Assembly: GCA_026770585.1 (NCBI GenBank)
Contig: MU646403.1
Coordinates: 211,739-249,287 of the forward strand
Source of the DNA: Baffinella frigidus
Lineage: Eukaryota; Cryptophyceae; Cryptomonadales; Baffinellaceae
DNA length: 37,549 nt
Reading direction: 5' to 3'
The notes beneath the pieces were generated by a model, which searched no databases, was not told the origin of the DNA, and worked only from the letters and a program-made list of their open reading frames with translations. Shown here one piece after another: positions 1-37,549 of this stretch. The position numbers and the translations under genes are program-made. Each line of letters opens with the position of its first letter. Within the stretch, counting starts at the first letter, position 1.

Positions 1-3000
1 CTTCTCTCCCCGCATTCGATAGATCGGATGACGTGACCTGAACGTGCGGCCTGGCTACGCGGGAGAGTTACATGTTATTTTACGCCCTGCGTCTTTCTAT
101 TATTTCCCCTTGAAATCGGCAAAAGTGGCCGGAAATACCCACACACAATTGACTTTGACCCTGCCGGCAACCGCAAGATAAGGTATTCTATCCGATCGGT
201 TGCCAAGTAAGGCCCTCCCTAGTAGGATCACGTCGGTTGGTATTCTATCCGATCGGTCGGCAAGTAAGGCAACCTTAGCCCTCCCCAGTAGGATGATGTG
301 ACCTGTACGTGCGGCCTGGCGCCTTCGCCATTTCGAAATCGTGCATGTCAACCTCCTGCTTTCGGGTTTCGGGTTTCGGGTTTCGGGTTTAGGGTTTCGG
401 GTTTAGGGTTTAGGGTTTAGGGGTGAGGGTTTAGGGTTTAGGGTTCAGGGTTTAGGGTTTGGGGTTTAGGGTTGAGAGTTTAGGGGTGAGGGTTTAGGGT
501 TCGGGGTTTAGGGTTCAGGGTTTAGGGTTGAGGGTTGAACCTCCGTGTACGCCGCAGGGTAGATTGTCACAGGCAGCTTCCCCCACCTGGGTCAGGAATT
601 GGGGTTGAGGGATTGGGAACCCTAAATCCAACCCTCAACCCTAATTGTCGCAGGCAAATTGCCCCACCTGCCCACACGGTGGGTTCTGCAGCCCGGTCAA
701 TTTATTTGATGAAAGCCCCGAGTGTACTTATGTGGGACGTGCCCGTACTAAACTTGGACACACCAGTACTACAGTAGGACGTGTCACTAGTTTAGAGTCG
801 CTTGGTACAAAGAGATGCAATCCATCAACCACACAGCGGGCTACGAAGGGATTTTCGGCCCAAACCAGGCCACCGTTCCGTTACCTTATCCATAGGAACC
901 CCCCCTATGGCCCTACGGATTGCCTACCGTAGGGTCGTAGGTCTGATCGCTTAAGGGTTATTCGAAATCCCTTCGAAGTCCGCTGTGTGGATGTCGACCG
1001 GTTTTCGGTCGCGATCCCCTTGGAAACTGTGTCGTTAGGCTCCTCGTTAGGCTCCTCATGTGCACGCCACCGCGTCCCCCCACTACGCGGGAGAGCTACA
1101 TGTCATTTTACACCATGCATCTTTCTGTTATTTCCCCTGAAATCGACAAAAGCTACCCACAAATAATTGACTTTCACCTTGCCGGCAACCGCATGATAAG
1201 GTATTGTATCCAGTCGGTTGCCAACTAACCCTCCCCCGTAGTAAGCTTAGCTATCTCGAAATCATGCATGTCACCCCCCTCCGTGTATGCCGCGGGTTAT
1301 ATGGTCACTGGCAGCTTCGGGTTTAGGGTTCAGAGTTTAGGGTTTAGGGTTTAGGGTTTAGGGTTTAGAGTTTCGGGTTTCGGGTTTGAGGTTTCAGGTT
1401 TAGGGTTCAGGGTTTAGGGTACAGGGTTTAGGGTTTAGGGTTTAGGGTTTAGGGTTTAGGGTTTAGGGTTTAGGGTTTAGGGTTTAGGGTTTAGAATGGT
1501 TTAGGGTTCGTGACAGCAAAGGCTCGATTTCGTCAAGAACACTCGAAATTTCGAGATTTTGTGTACCGGGTTGTCTTACCGGATAGCGTCTGGTGCCGAC
1601 TCTTTGCACCGAAGGATGAAGGTGATAGCCGTAGGGTTGGTTAGCTGAAACGGGGAGGCGGCACGCGACAAGAAGATGTTAAAAGGTTACCTACCCCGAG
1701 TCGTATATCACCAGGTATACAACGTATACTAAGATGGTCTGGTGCCGACCTTTCCACCAAAGGAGGAAGGTAATAATCTGGTGCCGACTCTTTCCACTCA
1801 CAGAGAAAGTGTCCGCGTATGTGGGAGTGATCAAAGCTTAAAGGACCTCAAAGGCTAAAGGACCTCAAAGGCTTCAGGACGTACAGGGACGGTGCACCGA
1901 TTCGTCTTGCCGGATAGCAGCATGTAGAGCGCTTCACCCCCCCGCACCTTCGCTCCACACGTGATTTCAGAACTCAAAGGTTCAGGGTTCAGGTTTTAGT
2001 TTTGCACATGCCGAAAGCTGTTTCGAGTTTCGGGTGTAGGCTTCAGGGTGTCAGGACGCTCGCACGCGCCAAGAGCGCCTTGTTCGTAGAACAATCCATG
2101 ACACAATTCGCAACCTACCTTCGTTGTATTCAGATAAATTCATGACACAATTCGCACAATATTCTCCTTGCATGTCGACCCTGGTCTCGGGTCCATATTC
2201 AATGTGCGCGGAGCAAGTCAACAGAAAACCCCTCCTAGTAATTTTGCGAGGGGTTTTGATATTCTCCTAGGCGTTTTGCGCGGGATTTTGGGATTCTCCT
2301 AGGAATTGTGCATTTTTGTTTGTTTTAGAATTCTCCGAGGAATTGGGGCGTTACCGAGGGGTAGAACGCCTCGACAATTCCGGCCGGCGAGAAAATGATT
2401 CCATCCCGCGCCCCATCCTGACCCTCCCCCCCGTCCCTCTCGTCCTCGCGCGTCTCGGCAGACCCCGCCCCCTCATCAGCGCGCCGCGCGCCCTGCCACG
2501 CCAGAGTGTACGAGGGGGTTGGAGTTTTTAAACCGCGTCAGGACACGGTTGTTGACTTTTGAAAACTACTGCCTTGAGAGGGAATTGACTTTTGACGACC
2601 CCTTCCGAGACTCCGGCGTAGTGCCATGCAGAACAGCTGCGTTGACGGTGGAGAGATCGGTAATTTATTGCCAAACAACCAGCGTCAGCGCTGCACATGC
2701 CTTCCGCATTGTGCTTCATACTGTACCCCGTGTCGGCCGCTCTTACGAGCTTTTTCCTGATGGATTCTATCTCCACCTCCTATCTTGACGGTGCACTTAT
2801 TTGGATGCGACCTGCCACCAAAATTATAATAGATGGCTTTACAACCCATTCAAAACATTGATTGTAATGGTGTGTACCAGAGTCGCGTCCAAACACGTCC
2901 ACTATCAACGTAGCCGTTCGGCATTACCTACCGCTGCGCCGCGGATCCATGCGTTTCAGGGGGGGTTGGAAGATGCGTGCCGTCTCTCGGCATAGAGACG

Positions 3001-6000
3001 GTGCCACTGAGGAGGACTTTCACCTCGCACCACACAAAACGGAACAATCAAAACCTGACTGGCATGTGAGATTCGTATTTGTGACCTGGCGTGACCCTCG
3101 AACATGCGTGCCGTCACGGGAGACGCTTCGTGCTTCTTGCTTCTCGACGATACGTGTTATCGGGAGACATGCGAAAATACTCTGGGTCTGGCAGGTTATG
3201 GACTCCCGAACAGGTTATTTGGGTGCCGGCGTTACATTTCCCCTTGAGGGGGAGATGGTGTCGCCGAGGAGGAGGTTGTCGAAGGAGACGATGCCTCCGT
3301 TGACCAGGACGAGGATCGTTGGCTTGCCGAGAGCGAGGATCGCCCGCGCGAATGCTTCTTGGAGCCCTGTGGGGTGCGATGCCCGTCACGGTAATCACTA
3401 GATATCTAGCGGTACAACAGTACAACAGCACAACTTTTCAAGTCGTCGAAGGAGACGATCCCTCCGTTGACCAGGATGAGGATCGTTGGCTGGCCGAGCG
3501 CGAGGATTGATCGGGCGAAGGATGGTTGGAGCCCTGTGTTTTTGCAGCGGTGTCATAGCAATCACAGTTGTACAGTTATAAATGTAGTTGCAGATTTGTA
3601 GAGGTATTTGTACAGTTGTTCAGTTAGTTGTTCAGTTAGTTGTACAGTTAGCCATCCCTCCATTGACGAGGACCAGGGTCGTTGGCTTGCCGAAGGCCAG
3701 GATTGATCGGGCAAAGGGCTCCCGGAGGCCTGGGGAGTGCGATGTCTTTCACGGTAATCATGATTACAACGTCACGGTTGTACAACCAACTGTACACCGG
3801 TACACCTGTACAACTGACTTGCGTACAACTGAACAACTAACTGTACACCTGCATAACTATCTTGACAACTGTACACGTCATTGTCCTTCCGTTGACGAGG
3901 ACCAGCATGGTTGACTGACCGAGGGAGAAGATTGATCGAGCGAAGGGTGTTTGGAGGCCTATGTGGGGGGATGCAGCGGTGTCAATCACGGCAATCTCAT
4001 CCGGAAGAATTCAAGTTGAACACGATCTGGCAACGAAAATTACCGCACAATTGTTTTTCACTATTACTGGAAAGGACCAATTGTGTAGTAATTTTCGCTG
4101 CCAGATCGTATTCAACTTGAATACTCGGCGGGATTGAATCACTGTACAACTGACTGTGCATGTGCACAACTAACTGTACACGTGTACACCTCTGCACACC
4201 TGTGCAACTCCGTACACCTGTAAAAGTGTACAACTGTACAACCAGCTGAACAACTAACTGTACACCTGTCAATTCGAATGCAACACACCGTGACCTTGGG
4301 AGAGGGGTTCCTACGGATAGGTAGAGCGTTTGCGGTAATTGTTGTCCGTTTTGGACGTACGGTTTTCCGGTTTTGAAAGGGACTTGCAAGACGCGACAAG
4401 GATTTTAAATAGTACCAGAATTGCGCCTCTTGGTACTATTTAAAATCCTTGTCACGTCCTATAAGTCCCTTTCAAAACCGGAAAACCGGAAAACCGTACG
4501 TCCAAAACGGACAACAATCACCGCAAACGCTCCAACGGAAAGGTGGCCATTTAGACCAAAAATCGCTTGGTAGGCTCCTGTGTGGTACATGATAATGATG
4601 ATGGAAGAGGTTTCGGGCGAGGACCTGGGAGGCGGGTGTCGTGGCTCTCACACGCCTCCTCGCCTCCACTCCCCAAACCCTGCGACCTACCACAGCCAAC
4701 TCCGAATGGTAATCTCCGTTAACTTCTCCGGAGGAACCTTCCTATGTTCCTGCGGGTTGCCTACCGTAGGGTCCTAGGTCTCATCGCTTAGGGGTTATTC
4801 AATCCCTTCGAAGTCCGCTGTGTGGTTATGATAACGCAAGAGGGTTCGGGCGAATACCTGGGAGACGGGTGTGGGGGCGATCGTGCCCTTCATACTCCTC
4901 CTCGCCTCCAATCCCCAGGCACAGCACCACCACATCTGCCGCCTGTAATAATACAAAACAATTTAAAAGTCGTAGGAGCCCCCCTACCTACCGTAGGCAA
5001 TCCGCAGGCTGTAAGTACCTCGCTGGCGTTAGCGTTTTGCATGAGTGTAGGGTGTAGGGTATAGGGTCCCTCATACTCCTCCTCGCCACAGATGTGGTGG
5101 TGCACAGCACCACCACATCTGCCGCCTGCTCGAGAAGCGAAGGTGCGGGACAATTCATGAATTGTTTCACGAACAAAGCTTTCACGAACAAAGCGGCCTT
5201 GGCACGTGCGAGAGCCTTGGAATCACGTGTGCGGCGAAGGTGCAGGGAGGTGAAGCACTCTACATACTGATGTCCGGCAAGACGAATGCCTGCACCTCAC
5301 ACCGCATCTGGAGCGCGAACGAAGGCATCAAGGCGATCTCGTTGGACACGTTCATTCGCTCACCCAGACTCGCGGATGAAGTCACCCTGGCGGAACTTGA
5401 TCCACAAACGAAGGTCTGGGTGAGCAGGTAGCAGATCGTGTGGTACGGTGAGGGGAAGCACTGGAGCGCGAACCAAGGTATCAAGAGGCGCCACCATTCA
5501 GTCACCCGGGTGAGACTGCATCCAAAACCGAAGGCCTGGGTGATCATGCCGCAGCCGCCTTCTGGTACTGTGCCTACTGAGGGGAAGCACCCGCGCGGCA
5601 GATAGGGCGTTGGGAAGGGAGGGGTGTCCGCCTATGGTGAGAGCAATCAAACCCCCTAAAGGACCTCAATGCTCGAGGTTGCACCTGTGCGGCGGCTAGG
5701 GCGTTGGCGATGCCAGGGCGCGCATCTGTCTCGTTGGACACGTTCATGCCGACCCCCCCCACCACCGACACCGCCCCTGAAAAGGATAACGCACGCAACG
5801 TCTTAGTTGCCAGGAGTGTGGGTAGTGAGGGTAGGAGGGCACGATGGGGAACTCCGACCATGCCACTACATATCAGGAAACTCAAAAGGAGGAGGATGGG
5901 TCTTGTTGGACACGTTGATGCCCCCTCCACCACCGCCACCACCCCTGTGCGCTTGAGAGTGAGGTGTTCAGCTAAACCGCAAATTCGTCGTGTGGGCCGA

Positions 6001-19153: not shown

Positions 19154-19519
19154 CTCCCCCCTCCTTTTTACGTCCCGTTTCAGGACGAGGCGAGAGAACG
19201 CCTGAAAGTGCCTTCTTGCAGCTCTCAAGAGCTGCGGGAAATGGCGTGGGCACGGGACGCAGGCTGAAGAGCCTCCAGTCTACGATTTTATGTCTCGAAC
19301 CACACGGCTTCTGCCCCCCCACAAAACTCGCGCGAACCCCGATTTGACCATCAATTTGACCACCAACTCCAGTCCTGAGGCGGGCTCGAACTTCAAACGG
19401 CGGGGAGGACCATAAACAGTTTTGCGGCGGGCTGGCGGAAGCTGCTGGGGGGGAAGTGCAGCGCCCCGGGCGGCTTGGGCAAGAGGGTCTGATTCCCAGA
19501 AGTCTCACAAGTCGCCGCG
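19154..19519. promoter_or_regulatory. Shared upstream region between the two divergent genes
   Basis: These 366 bp separate the GH3 start codon from the candidate start of the plus-strand gene. The region must hold the GH3 5' leader and promoter, and possibly those of the other gene. I see no TATA box. It is GC-rich near both ends. A short direct repeat of TTGACCA sits in the middle (19345-19370), and it is free of telomere-like filler, unlike the introns. The divergent arrangement is seen; a two-way promoter is inference. Confidence 0.35.
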
Positions 19520-19609
19520 ATGGTGAACACCGTAAAGATGAAGAAGCTAGGGGGCTTTTCGGAGATGCTGGCGGGCGGAAGGATGGCAGAGGGCTTCGCC
19601 AGGAAGATG
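19520..19609 (+). CDS. Candidate first coding exon of the plus-strand gene
   Basis: The ATG at 19520 lies in a strong eukaryotic start context (GCCGCGATGG). Thirty codons (MVNTVKMKKLGGFSEMLAGG, then RMAEGFARKM) follow up to a possible donor ATG|GTCCCG, phase 0. The stretch is Lys/Met-rich and could form an amphipathic helix. The opposite strand is also open here, with a hydrophobic run, so strand choice rests on the start context and the position 5' to the other plus-strand exons. Confidence 0.45.
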
Positions 19610-31600: not shown

Positions 31601-34600
31601 GGAACCCCCCTAGGCCCCTACGGCCTACCGTAGGCTTAACTACCCGATTTTCAGGACGCCATCCTATGAATGTGCCATCTCACACGGAAACATATTTCAT
31701 TTGCGCATGTGCCATCTCACACCGAAAACTATTTAAGTTACCACACCTTGTGGCTATCTTATGGGTGGGTTTCGTGCTATGGTACAGCTATGTAGAGGCC
31801 AAGATAGCAAACCCATCCATAAGATAGCGCTGCACGTGCGATCTCATACAGATTCAAATTTAATTTAAATCACCTTTTTGCTATCTTGTGGGTGGGATTT
31901 GTACTGTGGTACAGCAAAGTAGTCCAAATCTAAGGCGGAAACATAGTGAATTTGAAACACGGTTTTGTGCTATCTTAAGGGTGGAATTTGATATCTTAGC
32001 CTTGACGAGTGGCTTTACCATAGCACGAACCCTACTCCTAGGATAGCAAAGGGGTGATTTAAATCAAATCTATTTCCGCATTAATCGTCTGCAGCGTCTC
32101 ACATTTCTCCCTCGGTCGCCGCGAAACCCCAAACCTTTAAACACCAAACCCTAAACCCCAAACCCCAAACCCTAACCCCTAAACCCTACACCCTAAATGA
32201 AACCTAACCCTTAAACCCTGAACCCCAAACCCTGAACCCCAAACCCTCAACCCTAAGCCCTAAACCCTAAACCCTAAACCCTAAACCCAAAACCCTAAAT
32301 CCTAAACCCTAAACCCCAAACCCCCAACCCAGATTCTGTCTCTGTTCGCGACTCTGATGGTGGAACCCTCGAGAGTTCTCGAAAAGATGTCCAACGCCAT
32401 GGGCAGGTTAACCCTGCTTCTAGCTCTCTCTTCTCCACCCTCTCTCTCCTCCACCCTCTCGCTCCGCTACCCTCTCTCTCCTCCACCCTCTCTCTCCTCT
32501 ACCCTCTCTCCCCCTCTACTCTCTCTCTCCTCTACCCTCGCTATCTCTCCTCTACCCTCTCTCTCCTCTACCCTCTCCCCCCTCTACTCTCTCTCTCCTC
32601 TACCCTCGCTGTCTCACCTCTACCGTCTCTGTCCTCTACCCTCTCTCTCCTCTACTCTATCTCTCCTCTACCTTCTCTCTCCTCTACTCTATCTATCTCT
32701 CCTCTACCCTCTATCTCTCCTCTACCCTCGCTCTCTCTCCTCTACCCTCTCTCTCTCCTCTACCCTCTCTCTCTTCTACCCTCTCTCTCCCGCCCTCTCT
32801 CTCCTCTACCCTCTCTCTCCTCTCCTCTCCTCCATCTCGCCTCTACCCTCTCTCTCTTCTACCCTCGTGGGTCAGCCGTCGAGACCCAGCGCTGCCTCAC
32901 GTGGTTTGACTGATTATTCTCAAGTTGACACACTGGGTGTTCGTTCAAATCCGTCAATTTTGGAGCGGGAAAGAGCCGGGCTCACCACACTGGTGAGCCC
33001 AACTAGACTGAGACGGAGCTAGACCACGCCAGGTCATAAGTGGGGTTTTCATGCACACTTGTTCGCGCGAAAAGTGTTTAGATGGCTTATCATGGTACAG
33101 ATTCTTTAAATTCCGCATGGCAAGGGCCCAAATTTCCAACACCTTTGGCGTGTTTCCCGGGAAGAATCAACTTGACTCGAAAATCGTGTAGTACAAAGAA
33201 ATTTCGACTTCTGACCTGGCGTGGGTTCCCCGCAGGTTGTTCGAAGTCCACGCGAAAAGCATCACAACTCTCAACTGTGGAACCGGTTCAAAATGTTACT
33301 TTCTTGCAACGAAAGTTACTACATAATTGGGTCTTACTAGTGACAGTAAAGCATCTGTGCAGTAATTTTCGTTCAACCATAAAAGTTTTAAAAAATTATC
33401 GTTTCCGGAGTTGAACTCAGTGGGTCTTTTGAGCGCCTCTGAGGCGGCTCGCGCGCGTTCGGACGCCTGATCGCTGGGGGGGTAACCCTAAACCCTAAAC
33501 TCTAAACCCTAAACCCTAAACCCTAAACCCTAACACCTAAACCCTGAATGTAAACCCACGGAGCAGAGGCTCGCAAGGGCACTGGTATGTCCGGCGGTGC
33601 ATCCTGACGACAATCACGCCCTTCGCTCTCGATGGCGACGCCAAGTCAATCGCCATGCTCCAGTCTGCTGTCACCGACAACAGGTCCCTCTACCTCTGTC
33701 TCCGTCTATTTCGGCTCACTAACTTGGTGAACCTGGGCAGATTTCCGCTCTCCAAAGTTGACGAGTGTGTACCGCAAACCTCAGCCTGTCAACTTGAGAA
33801 TAGTCCTCCTGGCGACAATCACGCCCGTCGCGCTCGATGGCGACGCCAAGTCCATCGCAATGCTCCAGACGGGCGCAGAGCGGCTGCCCAATATCAGATC
33901 GCGACGTTTCGTTGCTGTGGTACCAAATGAGTGTGCGTGACCCGGTGAGACGCAGCTCCTCGTCCTTTCCACGTCCGGGCGTTCCCCCAGAACCGAAAAC
34001 CCCGGTACAGAATCGAAAAACCTGGTACAAAATTAAAACCGATAAGTGCATCTGAATTTTTCACTGACGACCTGGCGCGGCCACAGTCCGCACGTGCGGA
34101 GAATCGCCGGGCGGTCGCTGCGCGAACTTAATACGGTCATGTATGTCAACTTAACGGCCGTGTATGTCAACTTAATACACCTCGCCTTTCCCCCCGTACA
34201 GCCCATACGTGCGGAGAATCGCCGAGCGGTCGCTGCGCGCCATCTACGTCAAAAACCACGAACGCGACAACCCCCAGCTGAAGTTCGTGAGCAGCCTGCC
34301 GGCCGTCACGGGATACGTCGTCGTGTTGGAGCCGGATGCGGAGCAGACGCTCCACAAAAAGGTGATGAGCCTCACTCGTGGCAGACTATTTGGGCTCGCA
34401 GATTTGGTGGCCCCGGGTCCTGATCTGCTCCAAAGTTGACGGGTTTGTACCGCAAATCTAGCATGTCAACTTGAGAATAGTCTGTCAGCCTGCCGGCTGT
34501 TACGGGATACGTCGTTGGAGCCGGACGCTGAGCAGACGCTTGACAAAACGGTGATGAGCCTCACTCGTGACAGACCGTTGTTACGTTGACATGCTGGGTT

Positions 34601-36989
34601 CGAGGTACGAATCCGTCAACTTTGGAGCGGAAAAGAGGGATATGTTGTGACGCTCGAGCCGGACTCGGATCAGATGGTTGACAAGAAGGTGCTAACCGAC
34701 TATTCGAAAGTTGACATGCTGGGGGTTTGGGTGTGGATACGTCAACTTTGGAGCGGGGAAGAGCCCGGGTTCACCAAGTTGGTGAGCGCAAATAGACTGA
34801 GACACAGCTTGACATTGAAGGGCCTGCTGCACGCATCCTCTTGACGTGCCTGTCACATGTAATTAGGGTAACGCGGGTAGTTAGGCCTACGGTATTGCCT
34901 ACGGTAGGCCGTAGGGCTCCTAGGACCTAATGTTTCGTAGGACCCCTTCTAGGCCCCTACGGCCTACCGTAGGCAATACCGTAGGCTTAACTGCCCGGTT
35001 TTCAGGACGTTGGCCTATGAATGAACCACACCTGCTCACTCATCACACACCACACACCACACAAAACCCTAAATCACAAACCCTAAATCCCACACTCTCA
35101 ACACCGAACCCTAAACCTTCAACCTAAACCCTAAACCAAAACCTTAAACCCTAAACCCTAAACCCCAAATCCCAAACCCTGAACCCTAGCTCCTCAACCC
35201 CCACCCCCCACCCCTAGACCCTAAACCCCAAACCTCAAACCCCAAACCACAAACCCCAAACCACAAACCACAACCCCTGCACCATCACCCCCAACCCCAA
35301 AGCCCCAAATTCTAAATCCCAAACCCTAAACCTCAAACCCTAAACCCCCACCTCAAACCCCTAACCCCTAAACCCGAAAACCGAAGGTGGTGCTGGACGA
35401 GACGACGCAGATGGAGCTCATCCCACACCCAACCAACTCACTCACATTCCACCACTAACCTCCAAGCCATAATCCCCAACCCCAACCACTAACCCCGGGC
35501 ATGAAGGATGGAAAATGTCTCATTTCCTTCGGAGGAATGTGCGAAATCGAACCTTTTCCCCCGAGGAAATACCCAAGCTCCAGCCTGGATTTGACCCGGA
35601 ACCCGGAACCCGAAGGTGGTGTTGGACGAGACGACGCAGATGCGCGACCTCCTCGACATTTCCAACTTCAACAAGACCCCTCTCGATCTCTCTCCAGACC
35701 TCTCTAGATCCTTCTAGATCCTTCTGGACCTCTCTAGACCCTTCTAGATCATTCCATAGCCCTCTAGAACCATCTAGGCCCGTAAACCCCAAGCCCTCAC
35801 CCCCAAAGGTGGTGTTGGACGAGACAACGCAGATGGTGCGCGACCTCCTCGACATTTCCAACTTGATCAAGAAGACCCCGGGGTAACATTTCCTACCCTC
35901 AACCCTCAACCCTAAACCCTAAACCCTAAACCCTAAACCCTAAACCCTAAACCCTAAACCCTAAACCCTAAACCCTAAACCCTACACCCTGCAAGTGCGT
36001 GACCTTCTTGACATTTCCAGCTTCATGAAGACCCTGGGGCAAGAAATCTTAACCCCAAACCCTAAACCATACTCTATAAACCGTATACCCCGAACCTGAA
36101 TCCTAAACCCTCAACCCTCAACCCTCAACCCGAGCAACTTCAACAAGGCCCCGGGGAAAGATTCCCTCAACCCTAAACTCTAAACCCTAAACCCTGAACC
36201 CTGAACCCTGAACCCTAAACCCAAACCCTAAACCCTGAAATGTGAAACATAACCCTTTAGCCCTGGACCCTCAAATTCAAACACTGAATCCGCAACCCGA
36301 CCTTGCTGATATCCACACTTACAAGACCCCGGGGCAAGATACCCCCCTCACCCTCGCTATCTTTTTGTTTTCAATGCGAATCCGGATATTTTGTAAAAGT
36401 CAACACCCCCACAAATCTGTCAACCACGAGTTACACCATCGGTGTACTTTCATTTTCGATTTTCGCCTTGAGTTGACTAATACAAAAACTTCGCCCTGGC
36501 AGTGTATTTCCCTCCCACGCGGTGGGCTTCGAAGAGGATTTTGACCAGAATTCTGGTCGAAAGTCCTGCCGTGCCTTCCACGAATGAATTCTAGAGGGGA
36601 CTATTTAAACGTGACACATTTTTACAAGTAAATATTTTTGTTGCAACTTTCATTCCATTGGAGCCATTCTATGTTTTTTTGCACATAGACAGTGAGAGGC
36701 AGAGCTAGAATCTCACCAACGACCCCGGGGCAAGATTCCCGCCACGAACTTGGTTCATTTTTGACAAACATCATTGACCATCAATTGACCATCAATCATT
36801 GACCATCAATTGACCATCAATCGGAAAGCAGGGCGGATGACGAGGCAGGGGCGAGTCCTTTGAAGCAGCCTTCCAAGCACCACGACGCTCCGCAAGAACC
36901 CCCCATGGCTGCCAGCGCACCGTCTAAGAGTCCGACCAACAAAGCGCAGAATGATGAAGACTTCTTGGACACGGCTGGTGTCGCCGATG
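19520..36989 (+). CDS. Unrecognised multi-exon gene: HEAT-like and coiled-coil protein, continues past window
   Basis: This is the whole span; its exons are listed separately. I do not recognise the product. The pieces share one strand, are GC-rich and have standard GT-AG borders. In two blocks (24990-27147 and 32333-36989) and the pair 29314-30546 they join in phase. Visible parts are a basic N-terminus, an acidic stretch (AEEDEEEC), helical segments that look HEAT/ARM-like (LATNKSANLRKQILRKLVFA, SPYVRRIAERSLRAIY), a 32-residue coiled coil (LEELKEKYLKVTQEFEVEF), and a polar Ser/Pro/Lys/Asp tail. No signal peptide or membrane segment is visible. One gene is the simplest reading, but 19.5-25 kb and 25-37 kb could be two genes. 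Confidence 0.6.
19839..19916 (+). CDS. Candidate exon, plus-strand gene
   Basis: The 78 bp (26 codons, phase 0 to 0) lie between CAGAGAG and CGCCAG|GTGCGC. The exon encodes DKKRWRIDALGRAVPDEG and IPQDKLRQ, a charged, soluble-looking segment without repeats. The acceptor could be up to 5 bp earlier. The function is unknown. Confidence 0.5.
19945..20008 (+). CDS. Candidate exon, plus-strand gene (Cys-containing)
   Basis: An open stretch after GAGCAG encodes VFQPECVQQRGRYLCRFSSC and then GG, to a possible donor GGCG|GTCGTC. Three Cys residues are present, but no zinc-finger spacing that I recognise. The opposite strand is open too. I infer the strand from the neighbouring exon. Confidence 0.35.
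20009..20441. other. Intron-like stretch of the plus-strand gene
   Basis: There is no clear exon here. 20050-20110 contains two GATGCACTCGGATTCCCAGT-like parts in inverted order. 20190-20280 has CTCCTGAACC and GGTTCAGGAG as an inverted pair (20198-20262), so a transposon is likely. Confidence 0.5.
20474..20612. mobile_element. Element of the CTAGCTCTG family, full length
   Basis: The ends TTGCTCTGCCTCACTCGGGT and GACGGATACAGAGCTAGG are inverted relative to each other. The core has CTCAAGTTGACATGCTGGGT and GGAGCGGAAAAGAGCC. It follows directly on an echo of the acidic exon. Confidence 0.8.
20924..20985 (+). CDS. Acidic exon (AFLAEEDEEEC), plus-strand gene
   Basis: The 62 bp start after GTGGCAG (phase 0) and end CGAAG|GTCTCG (phase 2). 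The exon encodes LYIDAFLAEEDEEECADHV and RR. Two echoes support it as a once-functional unit: MYIDAF after CAG at 20442-20459, and AFLAEEDEEECADRVRR at 21152-21211 with the same donor. The phase links to the exon at 22423. Confidence 0.62.
21247..21383. mobile_element. Inverted-repeat element, CACACGGTGG family
   Basis: The ends are CCACACGGTGTGCTTCGAGG and TTCGTAGTCCACCGTGTGG. The interior shares TTGCACCAGAAAATC and AAGGCAAGTTGACTTTTGAT with 6078-6215. It is in an intron of the plus-strand gene. Confidence 0.82.
21428..21571. mobile_element. Element of the CTAGCTCTG family, full length
   Basis: It runs from CTAGCCCTCTCTCAGGCTAT through CCAATTTGGTGGGCCCGGGT and AAAGTTGACGGGTTTGCACC to CGAGTGAGGCAGAGCTAG. 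It is in the opposite orientation to the copy at 20474. Confidence 0.8.
22189..22322. mobile_element. Near-perfect palindromic element
   Basis: The left arm ATCTGGTTTTAGATTTGCAA and AGTGGCTCGTGCTGGTA is matched by TACCAGAACGAGCCACTTTA and CAAATCTAAAACCAGAT. The centre pair is AAACTCGAGGG and CCCTCGAGTTT. Confidence 0.85.
22423..22465 (+). CDS. Exon SLGTMAEQGDFECAK, plus-strand gene
   Basis: The 43 bp start after GGTGGCAG (phase 2) and end GCCAAG|GTCATG (phase 0). The reading LGTMAEQGDFECAK joins the preceding acidic exon and the following helical exon without a frame break. Echoes of its two ends lie at 21897-21916 (GTGGCAG and CCTCGGGAC) and 22718-22735 (DFECTK, then GTGCTA). Confidence 0.6.
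22531..22692. mobile_element. Inverted-repeat element in an exon-echo interval
   Basis: The ends are ACCTTGGTCGGATAGCGAGG and CCTCGCTATCCGAGCAAGGT, followed inward by GGGCAAACGGG and CCGTTTGCCC. It lies between an exon (22423-22465) and the echo of its end (22718-22735). Confidence 0.85.
22739..22782 (-). repeat. Short TTTAGGG block inside the plus-strand gene
   Basis: About six imperfect GTTTAGGGTTGAG units lie in the antisense orientation relative to the surrounding exons. This is an exception to the orientation rule. Confidence 0.85.
22925..23060. mobile_element. Element with CCACACGAGAATGC end
   Basis: The left end CCACACGAGAATGCTAGAGG matches the right end of 30730-30907 in reverse. 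TGTGTAGTAACTTTCGTGG and GGTCACGCAACTGGGG follow. The right end is not clear. Confidence 0.6.
23237..23326 (+). CDS. Helical HEAT/ARM-like exon, plus-strand gene
   Basis: The 90 bp (30 codons, phase 0 to 0) lie between ACTGCAG and CCTCAG|GTTCCG. The exon encodes VLLSWLATNKSANLRKQI and LRKLVFAAKTPQ. The alternation of Leu/Ile/Val with Lys/Arg suggests a helical hairpin of the HEAT/ARM kind. An echo (RKLVFAHKSALR, with the same CTCAG|GTTCCG donor) follows at 23582-23622 beyond an inverted-repeat element. Confidence 0.68.
23488..23582. mobile_element. Inverted-repeat element, GTGCTATCTTAAGGGTGGG type
   Basis: TGTGCTATGTTAAGGGCGGG and CACCCGTAAGATAGCACA are inverted ends. Related units lie at 31735-32055. 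It separates the exon at 23237 from its echo at 23582. Confidence 0.72.
23582..23622 (+). repeat. Echo of the LRKLVFAAK exon
   Basis: It reads RKLVFAHKSALR and ends CTCAG|GTTCCGAGCCTC, the same donor and intron start as the exon at 23237-23326. Confidence 0.8.
23704..23822 (+). repeat. Telomere-like filler (sense CCCTAAA)
   Basis: AAACCCTAAACCCT units lie in an intron of the plus-strand gene, just after one copy of GAGATGGAGAGCTGTCTTTC and before another (23851). Confidence 0.93.
24027..24205. other. Assembly gap (179 N)
   Basis: This run of unknown bases lies inside an intron of the plus-strand gene. The right side resumes in CCCTCTCC-type low-complexity sequence (24206-24290), so the gap is probably a CT-rich repeat that could not be assembled. 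Open frames crossing it are artefacts. Confidence 0.98.
24206..24292 (+). repeat. CT-rich low-complexity tract at the gap edge
   Basis: TCTCCCCCTCCTCTCCC-type sequence is pyrimidine-only for most of its length, read in the sense of the plus-strand gene. Confidence 0.9.
24469..24605. mobile_element. Inverted-repeat element, CCACTTAGCAGC family
   Basis: It shares AGCAGCGACCGAGGACCTTT and GATGGACTGTATCCGTGAAG with 12257-12395 and ends CTGCCAAGTGG. Confidence 0.83.
24676..25369 (+). repeat. Long telomere-like filler with embedded exon copies
   Basis: CCCTAAA and CCCAAAC units fill most of these 700 bp. They are broken only by the copies of the CTGTGGCAG exon region (24764, 24893, 24981) and an A/T-rich end (25318-25352). 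Confidence 0.93.
24990..25025 (+). CDS. Exon VANCREILIGIQ, plus-strand gene
   Basis: The 36 bp (12 codons, phase 0 to 0) lie between CTGTGGCAG and ATCCAG|GTCTCA. The exon encodes VANCREILIGIQ and continues in phase into the next exon (VCIEDEKAA). Copies of its upstream flank (CTGTGGCAG) and first codons recur at 24764-24797 and 24893-24915. This may therefore be the surviving member of a small array. Confidence 0.55.
25370..25441 (+). CDS. Helical exon, plus-strand gene
   Basis: The 72 bp (24 codons, phase 0 to 0) lie between CTCCTCAG and CAGAAG|GTACCC. The exon encodes VCIEDEKAAIRGMMLETLDF and AAQK, an amphipathic helix pair. The intron before it is nothing but CCCTAAA-type and A-rich sequence. 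An inverted-repeat element starts 5 bp past the exon, and an echo of the exon end (FAAQK-like, with the same GTAC donor) follows at 25704-25735. Confidence 0.75.
25446..25607. mobile_element. Inverted-repeat element, CACACAGCGG family
   Basis: The ends are CCACACAGCGGATTTCGAAG and CTTCGTAGCACGCTGTGAGG, with the same CCGTAGGAAC-type core as 829-990. It sits 5 bp behind an exon donor and is followed by an echo of that exon. Confidence 0.78.
25704..25735 (+). repeat. Echo of exon end FAAQK
   Basis: It reads CCTCGATTTG, then TTCGCGGCCCAAAAG and a GTACTC donor-like start, a decayed copy of the end of the exon at 25370-25441. Confidence 0.72.
25756..25840 (+). repeat. CTTCTAGATC decamer tract 1
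   Basis: Imperfect 10-bp units (CTTCTAGATC, CCTCTAGATC) stand before the exon at 25864. The same unit fills parts of three other introns of this gene. Confidence 0.85.
25864..25947 (+). CDS. Exon VDMLEIETLVPHSKR, plus-strand gene
   Basis: The 84 bp (28 codons, phase 0 to 0) lie between GCATGCAG and CACAAG|GTACAT. The exon encodes VDMLEIETLVPHSKRAETN and KMRGRAWHK. The upstream intron is a 10-bp CTTCTAGATC repeat and the downstream intron is CCCTAAA-type filler. No echo was seen. Confidence 0.75.
25975..26088 (+). repeat. Telomere-like filler ending at an acceptor
   Basis: AAACCCTA and AACCCCAAACCCC units run straight into CAAACAG, the acceptor of a truncated exon copy. Confidence 0.9.
26091..26290 (+). 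repeat. Two 5' echoes of exon VRELGLALSQR
   Basis: IREWGLALSRRH (26091-26135) and VWELGVALSHRH (26249-26290) each follow CAG and then break off into unrelated sequence. Confidence 0.8.
26300..26400 (+). repeat. CTTCTAGATC decamer tract 2
   Basis: CTTCTAGATC and CTTCCAGATC-type units follow a truncated exon copy. Confidence 0.85.
26429..26500 (+). CDS. Exon VRELGLALSQRTLMSC, plus-strand gene
   Basis: The 72 bp (24 codons, phase 0 to 0) lie between CAAAACAG and CACGCG|GTACCG. The exon encodes VRELGLALSQRTLMSCIISL and FTHA. Two truncated copies of its first half stand upstream at 26091-26135 (IREWGLALSRRH) and 26249-26290, each right after an acceptor CAG. Only this last copy has a donor and a full length. 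Confidence 0.75.
26515..26706 (+). repeat. Telomere-like filler (sense CCCTAAA)
   Basis: CCGAAACCC, CCCTAAACC and CCTCAACCC units directly follow the donor GTACCG. Confidence 0.92.
26699..26960 (+). repeat. Three 5' echoes of exon VLPVRMSVWYLFYEALD
   Basis: The first piece is WYLFYEG-like (26703-26728). The second is VLPVRMSVWYLF and a stop (26793-26831). The third is IASLSRCKEFVEY (26927-26960). Each is followed by the same transposon core (TCAACA..CTGGGTCCGTGGTACTAAATCCTC). Confidence 0.83.
27050..27147 (+). CDS. Exon VLPVRMSVWYLFYEALD, plus-strand gene
   Basis: The 98 bp start after GGGCGCAG (phase 0) and end CACCG|GTCTTC (phase 2). The exon encodes VLPVRMSVWYLFYEALDTVS and LSRCKEFERRMH. 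Aromatic and hydrophobic spacing suggests helices. Three decayed copies precede it (26699-26960), one with a stop after WYLF. Confidence 0.75.
27155..27425 (+). repeat. Telomere-like filler (sense CCCTAAA)
   Basis: CCCTAAACC units with several perfect runs begin a few bases after the donor of the WYLFYEALD exon. Confidence 0.95.
27426..28166. other. Long intron stretch with repeat-like sequence and a 159-codon open frame
   Basis: 27708-27780 holds inverted parts (CTCCGTTCTGGG / CCCAGAACGGAG and CCAGTCCCGA / TCGGGACTAG). GTGTGCATTC..ATG.TGTGAG.GTGGG occurs at 27910-27945 and 28107-28135, and in reverse at 9510-9560. At least one exon should lie here, because the phases of the flanking exons disagree. 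I could not pick it out. Confidence 0.5.
28167..28199 (+). CDS. Short exon DLMDAVKKTEE, plus-strand gene
   Basis: The 33 bp (11 codons, phase 0 to 0) lie between TTATCAG and GAAGAG|GTCTCT. The exon is followed at once by a CT-rich microsatellite intron. It is charged and helical. Its phase does not match the exon ending at 27147, so at least one exon between them is unseen. Confidence 0.5.
28200..28457 (+). repeat. CTCTCGCT microsatellite intron
   Basis: CTCTCTCT and CTCGCTCG units run directly from the donor GAG|GTCTCT of a short exon. On the sense strand it is almost free of AG and GT. Confidence 0.93.
28458..28945. other. Intron stretch with GAACTAGAT-type sequence
   Basis: CTCTGAACTAGATAATATG, GAACTAGATGATAGAG and, further on (29215-29300), CTAGATGATACAAG and GAACTAGATAAGACGG are related fragments, probably of one element. 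A fragment of the CCACTTAGCAGC family lies at 28822-28846. An open frame at 28573-28810 has no support as an exon. Confidence 0.5.
28946..29140. mobile_element. Inverted-repeat element, CCACGCCAGGTCA type
   Basis: The ends CCACGCCAGGTCATAACT and ATGACCTGTCGTGG are inverted. The interior is not obviously related to 33023-33225 beyond the ends. Confidence 0.6.
29314..29371 (+). CDS. Exon AFREALEEGRETMAEMLEE, plus-strand gene
   Basis: The 58 bp start after CGAAGCAG (phase 0) and end GAGGAAG|GTCCGC (phase 1). The exon encodes AFREALEEGRETMAEMLEE, a strongly charged helix. Echoes lie upstream at 29174-29205 (KQAFREAFDEL) and downstream at 29621-29655 (ALEAMAAMLEE plus the same donor) and 29729-29745. 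Confidence 0.7.
29390..29575 (+). repeat. Telomere-like filler (CATAAACC variant)
   Basis: Units of ACCATAAACC and ACCACAAACC begin 20 bp after a donor; the variant appears locally amplified. Confidence 0.9.
29768..29926. mobile_element. Inverted-repeat element, CACACGGTGG family
   Basis: The ends are CCACACGGTGGACTACGAA and TCGAAGCCCACCGTGTGG. The sub-terminal ATCAAAAGTCAACTT is shared with the other copies in reverse orientation. Confidence 0.85.
30443..30546 (+). CDS. Exon RMHAGIDVATLEMQMEAK, plus-strand gene
   Basis: The 104 bp start after GATGGCAG (phase 1) and end GAGAAT|GTCAGT (phase 0). The exon encodes RMHAGIDVATLEMQMEAK and DRVLVDDAAFLTAKEN, and joins the previous exon as EEDRMHAG. 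An inverted-repeat element follows within 10 bp of the donor, then an echo of the exon end plus donor (VVEDARFLAAKEN, GTGAGT) at 30664-30703. Confidence 0.72.
30556..30668. mobile_element. Element of the CTAGCTCTG family
   Basis: It reads ACTATTCTCAAGTTCACGTG, TTTGGAGCGGGAAAGATCCC, AAATTGGTGAGTCCAAATAG. It starts 10 bp past an exon donor and ends at an echo of the same exon end. Confidence 0.75.
30664..30703 (+). repeat. Echo of exon end FLTAKEN
   Basis: It reads VVEDARFLAAKEN, then GTGAGTTGACCGACTAT. The copied unit thus includes the donor and the beginning of the CTAGCTCTG-family element that follows the intact exon. Confidence 0.82.
30730..30907. mobile_element. Inverted-repeat element, CCACACGAGAATGC type
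   Basis: The ends are CCACTCGAGAATGCTGGAGG and CCCTCTAGCATTCTCGTGTGG. It contains ACGAAAGTTACTACACAAAT and TTTTAAATAGACC. A matching left end (CCACACGAGAATGCTAGAGG) stands at 22925, and a similar one (TTCTAGAGGGGACTATTTAA) at 36589. Confidence 0.78.
31045..31091 (+). CDS. Candidate exon SALWRLYHETLLKRN, plus-strand gene
   Basis: An open non-repeat stretch encodes KYSALWRLYHETLLKRN. It could start after CATGAG or GAGAAG near 31045-31048. It is followed by GTTGCA at 31092 (the donor used here) and a better donor, GTGAGA, at 31099. The better donor gives phase 2, which does not suit the next exon's phase 0. The borders given are therefore approximate. Confidence 0.45.
31108..31178 (+). repeat. 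CTTCTAGATC decamer tract 3
   Basis: GATCCTTCTAGATCCTTCTA units fill the short intron before the coiled-coil exon. Confidence 0.88.
31202..31297 (+). CDS. Coiled-coil exon, plus-strand gene
   Basis: The 96 bp (32 codons, phase 0 to 0) lie between GGAGCAG and AACATG|GTGCGC. The exon encodes LEELKEKYLKVTQEFEVEF and AQYSKIEKEIENM, a heptad-like coiled coil. A second, shorter copy with the same donor (LAQYSKIEHENM, GTGCGC) lies at 31438-31482. Confidence 0.78.
31438..31482 (+). repeat. Echo of the coiled-coil exon end
   Basis: It reads VELAQYSKIEHENM with donor GTGCGCCTCCC, matching the end and donor of the exon at 31202-31297. Confidence 0.8.
31508..31675. mobile_element. Palindromic CCTACGG-rich element, twin 1
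   Basis: The arms are GTCCTGAAAATCGGGTAGTT and AACTACCCGATTTTCAGGAC, with AGGCCTACGG / CCGTAGGC pairs inside. It is closely similar to 34855-35022, including ACCTAATGTTTCGTAGGA and the flanking CCTATGAATG. Confidence 0.85.
31735..32060. mobile_element. Cluster of three GCTATCTTAAGGGTGGG-type units
   Basis: There are three related units: 31749-31826 (GCTATCTTATGGGTGGGTTT to CCCATCCATAAGATAGC), 31890-31925, and 31965-32050 (GTGCTATCTTAAGGGTGGAA to CCTACTCCTAGGATAGC). Outer arms AAATTTAATTTAAATCACCT and GGGTGATTTAAATC suggest nested insertions. Confidence 0.65.
32125..32332 (+). repeat. Telomere-like filler ending at an acceptor
   Basis: CCCTAAACC units end in CCCAACCCAG, the acceptor of the exon at 32333. 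Confidence 0.95.
32333..32406 (+). CDS. Exon ILSLFATLMVEPSRVLEKM, plus-strand gene
   Basis: The 74 bp start after CAACCCAG (phase 0) and end ATGGGCAG|GTTAAC (phase 2). The exon encodes ILSLFATLMVEPSRVLEKM and SNAMG. The acceptor follows 200 bp of CCCTAAA-type sequence, and the donor is followed by a 470-bp CT-rich minisatellite. It joins the next exon in phase. Confidence 0.72.
32409..32870 (+). repeat. CTCTACCCTCTCTCTC minisatellite intron
   Basis: Units of about 16-18 bp built on CTCTACCCTCTCTCTC begin a few bases after the donor ATGGGCAG|GTTAAC and run for 460 bp, pyrimidine-rich in the sense strand. Confidence 0.93.
32892..33022. mobile_element. Element of the CTAGCTCTG family
   Basis: It runs from GCTGCCTCACGTGGTTTGAC through AATTTTGGAGCGGGAAAGAG to AGACTGAGACGGAGCTAG, directly next to the element starting at 33023. 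Confidence 0.8.
33023..33225. mobile_element. Inverted-repeat element, CCACGCCAGGTCA type
   Basis: The ends are ACCACGCCAGGTCATAAG and TTCTGACCTGGCGTGGG. A possible relative with less perfect ends lies at 28946-29140 (TACCACGCCAGGTCATAACT to AATGACCTGTCGTGGTA). Confidence 0.75.
33285..33405. mobile_element. Element with GCAACGAAA..TTACTACAC core
   Basis: It contains TTGCAACGAAAGTTACTACA and GCAGTAATTTTCGTT as inverted parts and a CCGG-flanked outside. It is related to 3991-4137 and 7366-7508 through the core only. Confidence 0.6.
33483..33545 (+). repeat. Telomere-like filler (sense CCCTAAA)
   Basis: About eight CCCTAAA units lie shortly before the exon at 33567. Confidence 0.93.
33567..33683 (+). 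CDS. HEAT-like exon TITPFALDGDAKSIAML, plus-strand gene
   Basis: The 117 bp start after GGAGCAG (phase 2) and end ACAACAG|GTCCCT (phase 2). The exon encodes GSQGHWYVRRCILTTITPFA, then LDGDAKSIAMLQSAVTDN. With the next exon it reads like a HEAT unit (AKSIAMLQSAVTDN, SPYVRRIAERSL). A well-preserved echo (ATITPVALDGDAKSIAMLQ) follows at 33809-33890 beyond an inverted-repeat element. Confidence 0.75.
33690..33808. mobile_element. Element of the CTAGCTCTG family
   Basis: It runs from CTCTACCTCTGTCTCCGTCT to GTCAACTTGAGAATAGTCC. It lies exactly between the exon ending at 33683 and its echo starting at 33809. Confidence 0.8.
33809..33890 (+). repeat. Echo of exon TITPFALDGDAKSIAML
   Basis: ATITPVALDGDAKSIAMLQ is open and well kept; the last part (TGAERLPNI) has diverged. 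It directly follows the transposon at 33690-33808. Confidence 0.82.
34202..34361 (+). CDS. HEAT-like exon PYVRRIAERSLRAIYVKN, plus-strand gene
   Basis: The 160 bp start after CCGTACAG (phase 2) and end AAAAAG|GTGATG (phase 0). The exon encodes PYVRRIAERSLRAIYVKN, HERDNPQLKFVSSLPAVTGY and VVVLEPDAEQTLHKK. It has one head echo upstream (34086-34129) and two tail echoes downstream (34488-34552 and 34638-34690). The tail echoes repeat the exon end and a GTG start of the intron. Confidence 0.78.
34372..34486. mobile_element. Element of the CTAGCTCTG family
   Basis: It contains GGCAGACTATTTGGGCTCGC, CTGCTCCAAAGTTGACGGGT and ends GTCAACTTGAGAATAGTC. It lies between the exon at 34202-34361 and its first tail echo. 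Confidence 0.8.
34570..34811. mobile_element. Two further CTAGCTCTG-family pieces around an exon echo
   Basis: A short piece (34570-34637) with ACGTTGACATGCTGGGTTCG and TTTGGAGCGGAAAAGAG comes first. A longer one (34697-34811) ends AAATAGACTGAGACACAGCT. Between them lies the second tail echo of the exon at 34202. Confidence 0.75.
34855..35022. mobile_element. Palindromic CCTACGG-rich element, twin 2
   Basis: It is very close to 31508-31675, from CATGTAATTAGGG to the flanking GGCCTATGAATG. It differs in a deletion of the left outer arm and one extra CAATACCGTAGG unit on the right. Confidence 0.85.
35060..35386 (+). repeat. Telomere-like filler ending at an acceptor
   Basis: CCCTAAACC, CCCCAAACC and CCACAAACC units end in CCGAAG, the acceptor of the first copy of the VVLDETTQM exon. 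Confidence 0.93.
35683..35790 (+). repeat. CTTCTAGATC decamer tract 4
   Basis: CTCTAGATCCTTCTAGATCC units follow the second VVLDETTQM exon copy. The start CCTCTCGATCTC and the end CTAGGCCCGTAAACC closely resemble tract 2. Confidence 0.88.
35809..35882 (+). CDS. Exon VVLDETTQMVRDLLDIS, plus-strand gene
   Basis: The 74 bp begin after CCCAAAG (phase 0) and end CCCCGG|GTAACA (phase 2). The exon encodes VVLDETTQMVRDLLDISN and LIKKTPG. If it is not spliced there, a TAA follows directly at 35884. Phase 2 suits the polar exon at 36832. Six other versions lie around it between 35387 and 36740; this is the fullest. Confidence 0.65.
35893..36295 (+). repeat. Telomere-like filler between VVLDETTQM exon copies
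   Basis: About ten perfect CCCTAAA units (35917-35987) come first. Imperfect units (36050-36130, 36165-36295) follow, each block separating two exon copies. Confidence 0.93.
36346..36715. other. Intron stretch with two transposon fragments
   Basis: 36395-36500 resembles 10860-10935 in reverse (GGTGTACTT..TTCGATTTTCGCCTTGA, CCCCCACAAATCTGTCAAC). 36516-36540 is a CACGCGGTGGGCTTCGAA end, and 36589-36665 a TCTAGAGGGGACTATTTAAA element end. No exon is visible. Confidence 0.6.
36770..36822. repeat. TTGACCATCAAT tandem repeat
   Basis: Four imperfect units of CATTGACCATCAATTGACCA type lie just before the acceptor of the polar exon. A similar TTTGACCATCAATTTGACCA is seen at 19345-19365 upstream of the GH3 gene. 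Confidence 0.85.
36832..36989 (+). CDS. Polar Ser/Pro/Lys/Asp exon, plus-strand gene
   Basis: The 158 bp start after AAAGCAG (phase 2) and end GCCGATG|GTACCA (phase 1). The exon encodes ADDEAGASPLKQPSKHHDAP, QEPPMAASAPSKSPTNKAQN and DEDFLDTAGVAD. The composition suggests a disordered linker. It is non-repetitive and open, and its acceptor phase matches the exon before it. An inverted-repeat element begins 16 bp past the donor. The gene probably continues to the right. Confidence 0.6.
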
Positions 36990-37005
36990 GTACCAGCTCA
37001 CCACG

Positions 37006-37144
37006 CCACTTAGCAGCCACCGAGGTCTCCACGGATGCAGTCCATCTCAACTATTTGTTCTAGAATCTTATCCATTGCCCTAGAACCTGACCGGAGTTTC
37101 ACCTTGAATACAAGGTGAAAAGGTCTTCGGTAGCTGCTAAGTGG
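37006..37144. mobile_element. Inverted-repeat element, CCACTTAGCAGC family, reverse orientation
   Basis: The ends are CCACTTAGCAGCCACCGAGG and CTTCGGTAGCTGCTAAGTGG. The interior is the reverse complement of the copies at 12257 and 24469. It begins 16 bp past the donor of the polar exon. Confidence 0.85.
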
Positions 37145-37250
37145 TTGGCGAGCCCGGGCTCTCTGGAGCGTAAACGTTGGCGGATTTGTACCGCACCCCC
37201 AGCATGTCAACTTGAGAATAGTCGGTCAACCGGAGTGAAGCAGAGCTAGG
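37140..37250. mobile_element. Element of the CTAGCTCTG family
   Basis: It reads GGTTGGCGAGCCCGGGCTCT, TTTGTACCGCACCCCCAGCA and ends GGTCAACCGGAGTGAAGCAG then AGCTAGG. It is joined to the right end of the element 37006-37144. Confidence 0.75.
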
Positions 37251-37549
37251 CCCCCGCCGCGGCCCCGCGCCCCCTAGTCAGTCCGCATGATCTGTGTGTG
37301 AGCAACGTATCAGCCTAGTTGCAGCTGCAACTAGGATGCAGTTGCAGCTGCAACTGCAGATGCTGTGGATCAGCATCTGCTGGGTGCAGGCACCTCCTAG
37401 CTCTGTCTGACTCGATTCAGGAGATGCGGCGCCCAGCTGCATGCACCTTGAACCCCAAACCCTACACCGCAACCCCCAATCACGTTCCTTGTCTCACGAG
37501 CCCCGTGTTCGCGCAGAGGCGCCTCTCCTGATGAGAGACTGAGGGAGAG
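37251..37549. other. Right edge, no recognised exon
   Basis: GC-rich CCGCCGCGGCCCCGCGCCCC is followed by the palindrome chain, a CTAGCTCTGTCTGACTCGAT element end (37397-37416), a short CCCCAAACCCTACACC filler (37452-37470) and an open end. The next exon of the plus-strand gene may lie beyond the window. Confidence 0.55.
37314..37380. repeat. Chain of three adjacent palindromes
   Basis: 37314-37335 is a perfect 22-bp palindrome (CCTAGTTGCAG and its complement). 37338-37357 is a perfect 20-bp palindrome (GCAGTTGCAG and its complement). 37356-37380 is a 10-bp stem (GCAGATGCTG / CAGCATCTGC) with loop TGGAT. All share the GCAGCTGC or GCAG theme. No coding sign. Confidence 0.92.

Follow-up and report, generated by a model that had tools for sequence, protein, structure and literature searches.

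Most exons of two neighbouring genes of the cryptophyte Baffinella frigidus are flanked by partial copies of themselves, here called echoes, which lie on the same strand as the exon and, where they keep an exon end, nearly always keep the 5' end if upstream of the exon and the 3' end if downstream. The genes occupy a window of 37,549 nucleotides (the whole stretch of DNA analysed; contig MU646403.1, positions 211,739 to 249,287 of the forward strand), which lies inside one contig of the 382-Mb, 1364-contig assembly GCA_026770585.1. One gene, on the minus strand, encodes a beta-xylosidase-like protein of glycoside hydrolase family 3 (GH3); the other, on the plus strand, has no named function. 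We consider it somewhat more probable than not that the echoes are target duplications made by insertions at widely staggered breaks, of which selection has kept those that leave one complete exon.

An echo was defined as a same-strand local alignment scoring at least 27, within 1.5 kb of its own exon, with all exons masked. By this definition there are 57 echoes at 25 of the 37 exons: the GH3 gene has 37, at 14 of its 19 exons, and the plus-strand gene has 20, at 11 of its 18 exons. A preliminary description of this DNA, which had claimed same-strand partial copies beside the exons of both genes and had put their numbers at no fewer than 13 of 18 and 12 of about 18 exons, respectively, thus came close. 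The most echoes at a single exon is six (GH3 exon 7), and the echo of GH3 exon 1 is doubtful (score 32, an inner piece, 1.4 kb distant). When the score is raised to at least 40, 20 of the 37 exons still have an echo. On the opposite strand, the 1.5-kb surroundings of the exons yielded two matches with scores of 30 and 32, which is chance level. When GH3 exons were compared with the surroundings of other GH3 exons, the highest same-strand score was 30 and the highest opposite-strand score 32, exon 17 excepted. An inverted copy of exon 17 (score 68), the one clear copy on the opposite strand, lies in intron 13 and may have been captured from a site nearby. The copies had been said to be always on the same strand, which holds within 1.5 kb and fails for this copy 3.3 kb away. 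The identity of echoes to their exons ranges from 0.71 to 1.00; some carry stops and many keep a splice site. Comparison of the window with itself gave 45 direct and 2 inverted pairs (at least 40 bp, at least 80% identity, fewer than 500 bases between copies), the direct pairs including some inside telomere-like arrays.

The part of the exon that is kept depends on the side on which the echo lies. Upstream echoes keep the exon 5' end in 22 of 23 classifiable cases and downstream echoes the 3' end in all 22 (Fisher P 6e-12, for the four side/end classes only). The full classification is upstream/5' 22, downstream/3' 22, upstream/3' 1, downstream/5' 0, whole 1, and inner 11. The lone upstream/3' exception, near GH3 exon 18, apparently belongs to a longer duplicated tract that extends through exon 19 into the next intron. 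Any duplication of adjacent sequence in which the surviving exon is complete leads to this edge rule, and the rule is therefore evidence against scattered copying, which would place either end on either side. Tandem exon duplication, in which the whole exon is copied with both splice sites, does not describe the echoes, since one of 57 is nearly whole; the preliminary description had rightly set it aside, and the prevalence of exon ends that it reported would follow from insertion geometry together with selection. Echoes copied from spliced mRNA are ruled out as the general case, because 35 of 48 edge echoes run into the intron past the best of 30 shuffles, many of them by merely 3-10 bases.

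The anatomy of the duplications is clearest in young pairs. In 119,566 unmasked bases, with some loci overlapping, close pairs (at least 90% identity, at least 35 bp, less than 600 bp apart) number 75 direct and 12 inverted. Leaving out three rows of locus L040, which is the same DNA as L039, and seven rows with gaps of fewer than 30 bases, 65 direct rows were judged. These rows, selected for having two copies, read X-insert-X', direct repeats of the target lying on either side of the insert as in Daphnia, in 65 of 65 rows with a gap of at least 30. A tandem unit would have the insert recur after X'; it does so in none of the 65, and simple tandem duplication is rejected as the main form. With this anatomy, an echo resembles an insertion target that has been duplicated. 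At exon 3 of the plus-strand gene, for example, X (20936-20992) and X' (21153-21209) enclose an insert of 160 bp. Among 39 pairs chosen by hand, with no written rule, X has a median of 62 bp (range 35-102) and the insert a median of 169 bp; the floor of 35 bp was set by the search, so that shorter duplications are invisible there, as are echoes scoring below 27 in the census. Excluded from the 39 were ten other rows of the array-like L028 cluster, one element-only pair at 29659, and fifteen rows, mostly third copies, in the crowded loci L023, L035, L036, and L039. The inserts are mixed: 13 are dispersed elements, 11 are simple or telomere-like arrays, and 15 are unmatched as judged against a small reference sample of the genome. 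In the window, the cut edge of an echo lies within 5 bp of the edge of a dispersed element in 9 of 48 edge echoes, compared with 5% of random intron positions. The dispersed element at 17525-17629 begins at the cut edge of the GH3 exon 3 echo, and plus-strand exon 18 and its echoes are separated by TCTAGA-type and CCCTAAA-type arrays. The pairs have the form expected of an insertion that duplicates a long target, and the tie to any one kind of insert is loose.

In this sample, exons are hit more often than introns. At a score of at least 40, a same-strand local copy was found for 24 of 48 exon windows but for 13 of 152 non-exon windows, the controls being free of repeats and echoes (odds ratio 10.7); inverted local copies were found for none of the 48 and 11 of the 152, respectively. 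Exon sequence is kept while its echo decays, whereas both copies of an intron segment decay, and the resulting detection bias is estimated to be about 2-fold, not ten-fold. As far as can be judged, the exon excess is therefore beyond detection bias. Exons are also richer in G+C (0.63 versus 0.53), which may be relevant to the excess. Elsewhere in the genome, 24 stretches were sampled by place, 20 of which were half or more N or repeat-masked. In five by-place stretches, a small sample and no survey, 21 of 25 X segments are coding-like by a codon score trained on the exons of the window, exceeding the 75th percentile of random segments from the same stretches (Mann-Whitney P 4e-9); in the hand-picked set, 18 of 22 are. 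The echoes also recur around HSP70 genes on other contigs, whose exons were located by profile search before any echo search was made. With a threshold score of at least 35, echoes are present at 4 of 15 HSP70 loci, some of which overlap on one contig and four of which are 27-45% N, and all 13 echoes obey the edge rule, each being assigned according to which half of the profile match it keeps. The 15 loci are what remains of 17 after removal of an intronless pair (L027 and L028, on contig C709), two HSP70 genes of equal score that are separated by some 0.9 kb and run in opposite directions. Elsewhere the genome has several HSP70 matches that are, instead, short and exon-like. For an intronless HSP70 of this assembly, the highest identities among the named entries listed are those of cryptophytes (Guillardia theta 90%, Hanusia phi 88%, Hemiselmis tepida 88%), which agrees, for this one gene, with a cryptophyte source; the entries with better scores are mostly long proteins from other organisms, at 72-77%. 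The preliminary description had proposed an ongoing local process with selection; the spread of identities and the recurrence on other contigs support that much, but the notion that exons as such are copied gives way to X-insert-X'.

In the mechanism proposed, staggered breaks would be the cause, fill-in the copying step, and selection the filter. A break made of two nicks, one in each strand and separated by some tens of bases, would open in an exon or at its edge. Foreign DNA would be joined into the break, whether a miniature element, an array (telomere-like or simple), or DNA of another sort, and fill-in of the single-stranded ends would then give X-insert-X', with X some tens of bases long. 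When X lies across an exon edge, a complete exon with its splice site would survive and the cut piece would stay in the intron. An event wholly inside an exon would break the gene unless the insert were spliced out, and selection would thus leave mostly exon ends. Given a median exon of 84 bp and an X about 60 bp long, an event that touches an exon should in most cases span an edge and leave a complete copy, by arithmetic and not by measurement. Repeated rounds would accumulate echoes, lengthen introns, and sometimes create them. A bolder extension, which we regard as possible but would not yet expect to hold, is that breakage and insertion are directed to exons, with overhangs of 35-100 bases. 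Such a process would shred long exons, wall small exons with decayed ends of their own, and assemble introns from miniature elements and telomere repeats. Since harm would be avoided only by events that span an exon edge, exons may come to have about the length of an overhang.

The creation of an intron may be recorded at the end of the GH3 gene. An echo inside intron 17 passes directly from exon 18 sequence into exon 19 sequence, intron 18 being absent. Intron 18 itself (540-356) is almost entirely a telomere-like array, bordered, by eye, by a 7-bp direct repeat, GGAGGTT. In the simplest reading, the array was probably inserted after the duplication and then became intron 18. Of the 35 junctions examined, that of exons 9 and 10 also has a candidate intronless copy, a weaker case, and a doubtful match exists for intron 11. 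None of the 35 junctions has an intronless match on the opposite strand.

Several results weigh against insertion at staggered breaks with long target duplications. Every event is read from one assembly, in its post-insertion state alone, and the lengths of X require overhangs far beyond the 4-12 bp repeats described in Daphnia (PMC4202315). A break process would be expected to act in introns too, yet introns have far fewer pairs. Eleven of the 57 echoes are inner pieces outside both edge classes; for 13 of 48 edge echoes, no stub of homologous intron does better than 30 shuffles, and many stubs of the other 35 reach little beyond the splice site, although decay may account for stubs that are short or absent. 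The fit between echo cuts and element edges becomes modest when the distance allowed is 25 bp (13 of 48 versus 21% of random positions), and flanking direct repeats occur at 26 of 60 dispersed elements compared with 25% of 981 random positions. Insert-free tandem repeats exist, at 15270-15392 by GH3 exon 6 and in the seven rows with gaps of fewer than 30 bases. At a score of 35, 11 of the 15 HSP70 loci are without an echo. Finally, in none of 35 introns does the donor side carry a copy of the next exon start, or the acceptor side a copy of the previous exon end, above the 99th percentile of mismatched pairs; at the 95th percentile, 5 and 2 of the 35 do. The missing splice-site signature also led us to reject the birth of these introns by AGGT tandem duplication.

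The main rival is a transposon with long target duplications. Miniature elements would insert into exons, as introners do, and the array-filled gaps would represent elements that have decayed or been replaced. Dispersed elements situated between exon and echo, their edges no more than about 6 bp from the echo cut, at GH3 exons 3, 6, 7, 11, and 12 and at plus-strand exons 5, 12, 16, and 17 are in its favor, as is the element at 24424-24606, which, with no exon near, lies between exact direct repeats of 16 bp (24408-24423 and 24607-24622) that form a clean target-site duplication. Introners are also described as driving intron gain in other algae, although the duplications given for them are of 3-9 bp (PMC9860276). 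However, the kinds of insert are many, 11 of 39 being simple or telomere-like, and 34 of the 60 elements have no flanking repeat. Seven elements do have repeats of at least 25 bp within 25 bp of both ends, but six of these overlap an exon or echo and the seventh abuts exon 12. On balance we consider transposition unlikely, if a serious contender. Plain tandem duplication of a local segment that has one of its ends in the exon and the other in the intron, with insertions between the copies coming later, would predict the edge rule equally well. It is exemplified by the insert-free cases, including a 149-bp unit at GH3 exon 6, and the older echoes of GH3 exon 15 have, by eye, intron flanks in common. 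The young pairs, on the other hand, already hold an insert that is not repeated after X', which makes this origin rather improbable for the echoes at large.

Other explanations fare worse. Unequal crossing-over between like repeats of neighbouring introns has suitable substrates, since telomere-like arrays and elements are common to the introns of both genes. It is nevertheless very improbable, because whole exons would be expected to be copied, and the echo cuts fall within exons, of which 53 of 3565 bases match dispersed repeats. A function for echoes, as decoy splice sites or regulatory pseudo-exons, would agree with the splice sites that many retain, but the stops in some, the wide spread of identities, and the 12 of 37 exons without any echo leave it little chance. 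Assembly error is the least credible. The window does hold a run of N at 24027-24205, an assembly gap or masked stretch, but echoes diverge from their exons by as much as 29% and are set apart by other sequence, they recur on other contigs under one geometric rule, and the used exons match an independent contig. Paralogues elsewhere were also discarded as a source of the echoes: among the matches listed, with the best candidates scored, all 17 matches to the GH3 protein in the genome fall at this locus. The 18-base end of one element had no match in the viral contigs scanned, and its six matches in prokaryote genomes are, by estimate, about what chance would give.

Insertion at staggered breaks is not without parallel, contrary to the preliminary description, which knew of no precedent. 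In Daphnia pulex, introns are reported to grow through insertions at staggered double-strand breaks, for which end-joining repair is proposed; as here, the inserts are flanked by direct repeats of exon ends and young introns have undergone repeated rounds, but those repeats are of 4-12 bp, whereas the copies here are some tens of bases long and occur at 25 of 37 exons (PMC4202315). At 3'-overhang breaks, fill-in by CST and polymerase alpha yields small tandem duplications, overhangs of tens of bases being filled, joined, and duplicated much as envisaged here; that work concerns induced nicks in mouse and human cells, and the portion available describes no large inserts between the copies (PMC8355091). 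In horse and human, interstitial telomeric arrays were inserted at breaks, like the telomere-like arrays here, few with direct target duplication: a simple duplication is given for 3 of 66 horse loci, and the human arrays are described as never exonic (PMC7215372). Introners likewise create introns by insertion in algae, but they form families of like elements, some with the short duplications noted above, in contrast to the mixed inserts and long duplications seen here (PMC9860276). AGGT tandem duplication, too, places duplicated exon sequence beside introns, although its splice-site signature was not found here (PMC3443670). Direct repeats near intron splice sites, of 4-30 bp with a mean of 11.4 bp, have been read as footprints of insertion, as we read ours, but are shorter (PMC11782384). 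Each step of the mechanism proposed thus has a precedent: fill-in, insertion of telomere arrays, and repeated staggered breaks (PMC8355091, PMC7215372, PMC4202315). What seems new here is the length of the duplications, their density, and the preference for exons; in the literature searched, whose scope left out most subscription papers, no title describes partial exon copies beside most exons. The origin and growth of introns is an old question, and most cases are too ancient to read. This genome holds many local events that can still be read, with a duplicated target, an insert, and sometimes an apparent fossil copy of the exons from before the intron. From genome-wide counts one could derive how fast insertion, intron gain, and decay proceed, and could test directly whether introns are built by break repair and not by mobile elements alone.

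The exons against which echoes were called are fixed for the GH3 gene by P0001, a protein of 839 residues encoded on a public 2824-base contig, which we take as a transcript because the contig is without introns. All 692 residues encoded in the window are identical to P0001, which fixes 19 exons and 18 introns, with a single GT-AG solution at each of the 18 junctions when P0001 is mapped to the window. The preliminary description had asked for used exons to be defined by cDNA, and this comparison in effect does so at the protein level. The draft GH3 protein matches the Pfam families PF00933 (96.6 bits) and PF01915 (50.7 bits), both above cut-off, so that the N- and C-terminal domains that define glycoside hydrolase family 3 are both present. 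In the plus-strand gene, exons 1-10 match P0121, a 311-residue protein without a name, at 65% identity; this cluster of nine member sequences, covering 19520-27147, was the single one over threshold among 8000 candidates scored. Exons 11-18 were drawn from open frames and splice sites alone, and their frames join uncleanly in the draft. A HEAT match to this gene is weak and under cut-off, and a PDB search gave no relative. Its intron 1 apparently opens with a GC donor instead of GT (position 19633). An Rfam search of the window gave no match.

Table 1. Gene models, echoes, and intronless copies in the window (positions in the window; GH3, minus-strand gene; plus, plus-strand gene).
Feature	Coordinates	Strand	Remarks
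GH3 (beta-xylosidase-like) gene	301..19153	-	692 residues = P0001; 18 GT-AG junctions; PF00933 + PF01915
GH3 exons 1-7	19153-18700, 18466-18386, 17816-17694, 16524-16460, 16253-16188, 15243-15044, 13574-13487	-	P0001 match
GH3 exons 8-14	12201-12148, 11129-11046, 9896-9846, 8503-8417, 6830-6704, 5776-5685, 4942-4858	-	P0001 match
GH3 exons 15-19	3366-3236, 2492-2355, 1947-1898, 586-541, 355-301	-	P0001 match
GH3 exon 3 (17694-17816)	17457..17816	-	downstream echo 17457-17525
GH3 exon 4 (16460-16524)	16460..16872	-	upstream echoes 16665-16717, 16845-16872
GH3 exon 6 (15044-15243)	14427..15744	-	upstream echoes 15270-15392, 15602-15615, 15700-15744; downstream 14427-14477
GH3 exon 7 (13487-13574)	12704..14094	-	upstream echoes 13787-13828, 13899-13935, 14057-14094
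GH3 exon 7, downstream echoes	13337-13414, 13167-13185, 12704-12742	-	
GH3 exon 8 (12148-12201)	11278..12201	-	downstream echoes 12001-12024, 11278-11300
GH3 exon 9 (11046-11129)	10407..11129	-	downstream echo 10407-10440
GH3 exon 11 (8417-8503)	7781..8722	-	upstream echo 8674-8722; downstream 8260-8320, 8071-8126, 7781-7835
GH3 exon 12 (6704-6830)	6471..7083	-	upstream echoes 6885-6913, 7066-7083; downstream 6585-6615, 6471-6500
GH3 exon 13 (5685-5776)	5337..5944	-	upstream echo 5900-5944; downstream 5595-5613, 5337-5355
GH3 exon 14 (4858-4942)	4625..5125	-	upstream echo 5050-5125; downstream 4625-4694
GH3 exon 15 (3236-3366)	3236..3956	-	upstream echoes 3442-3533, 3654-3703, 3888-3956
GH3 exons 18 (541-586) + 19 (301-355)	36..667	-	short echoes 644-667, 36-55
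GH3 exon 17, inverted copy that includes both intron edges	5218-5296	+	matches 1891-1969; 3.3 kb away
Echo of GH3 exons 18 + 19 joined without intron 18	1246..1318	-	73 bases, score 86; inside intron 17
Candidate intronless copy of GH3 exon 9/exon 10 junction	10079..10122	-	score 31; inside intron 9
Plus-strand gene, function unnamed, 18 exons used	19520..35882	+	exons 1-10 by homology, 11-18 by open frame and splice sites
Plus exon 3 (20924-20985)	20443..21202	+	upstream echo 20443-20459; downstream 21153-21202, 98% identical
Plus exon 4 (22423-22465)	22423..22731	+	downstream echo 22705-22731
Plus exon 5 (23237-23326)	23237..23622	+	downstream echo 23573-23622
Plus exon 9 (26429-26500)	26094..26500	+	upstream echoes 26094-26127, 26253-26289
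Plus exon 10 (27050-27147)	26708..27147	+	upstream echoes 26708-26731, 26793-26830, 26919-26957
Plus exon 11 (29311-29371)	29176..29653	+	upstream echo 29176-29192; downstream 29620-29653
Plus exon 12 (30443-30546)	30443..30703	+	dispersed element 30556-30665; downstream echo 30666-30703
Plus exon 13 (31202-31297)	31202..31484	+	downstream echo 31442-31484
Plus exon 16 (33567-33683)	33567..33868	+	dispersed element 33689-33806; downstream inner echo 33807-33868
Plus exon 17 (34202-34361)	34092..34688	+	upstream echo 34092-34124; downstream 34486-34548, 34637-34688
Plus exon 17 region, dispersed elements separating echoes	34381-34492, 34558-34637		
Plus exon 18 (35809-35882)	35387..36038	+	upstream echoes 35387-35417, 35616-35680 (nearly whole exon); downstream 35995-36038

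The telomere-like repeats of the window are strongly oriented. Exact CCCTAAA occurs 62 times in the sense and 2 times in the antisense direction of the minus-strand gene (301-19153), and 88 and 2 times, respectively, in the plus-strand gene (19520-36038). In introns, CTAAA may serve as a branch point and the C-rich strand as a pyrimidine tract.

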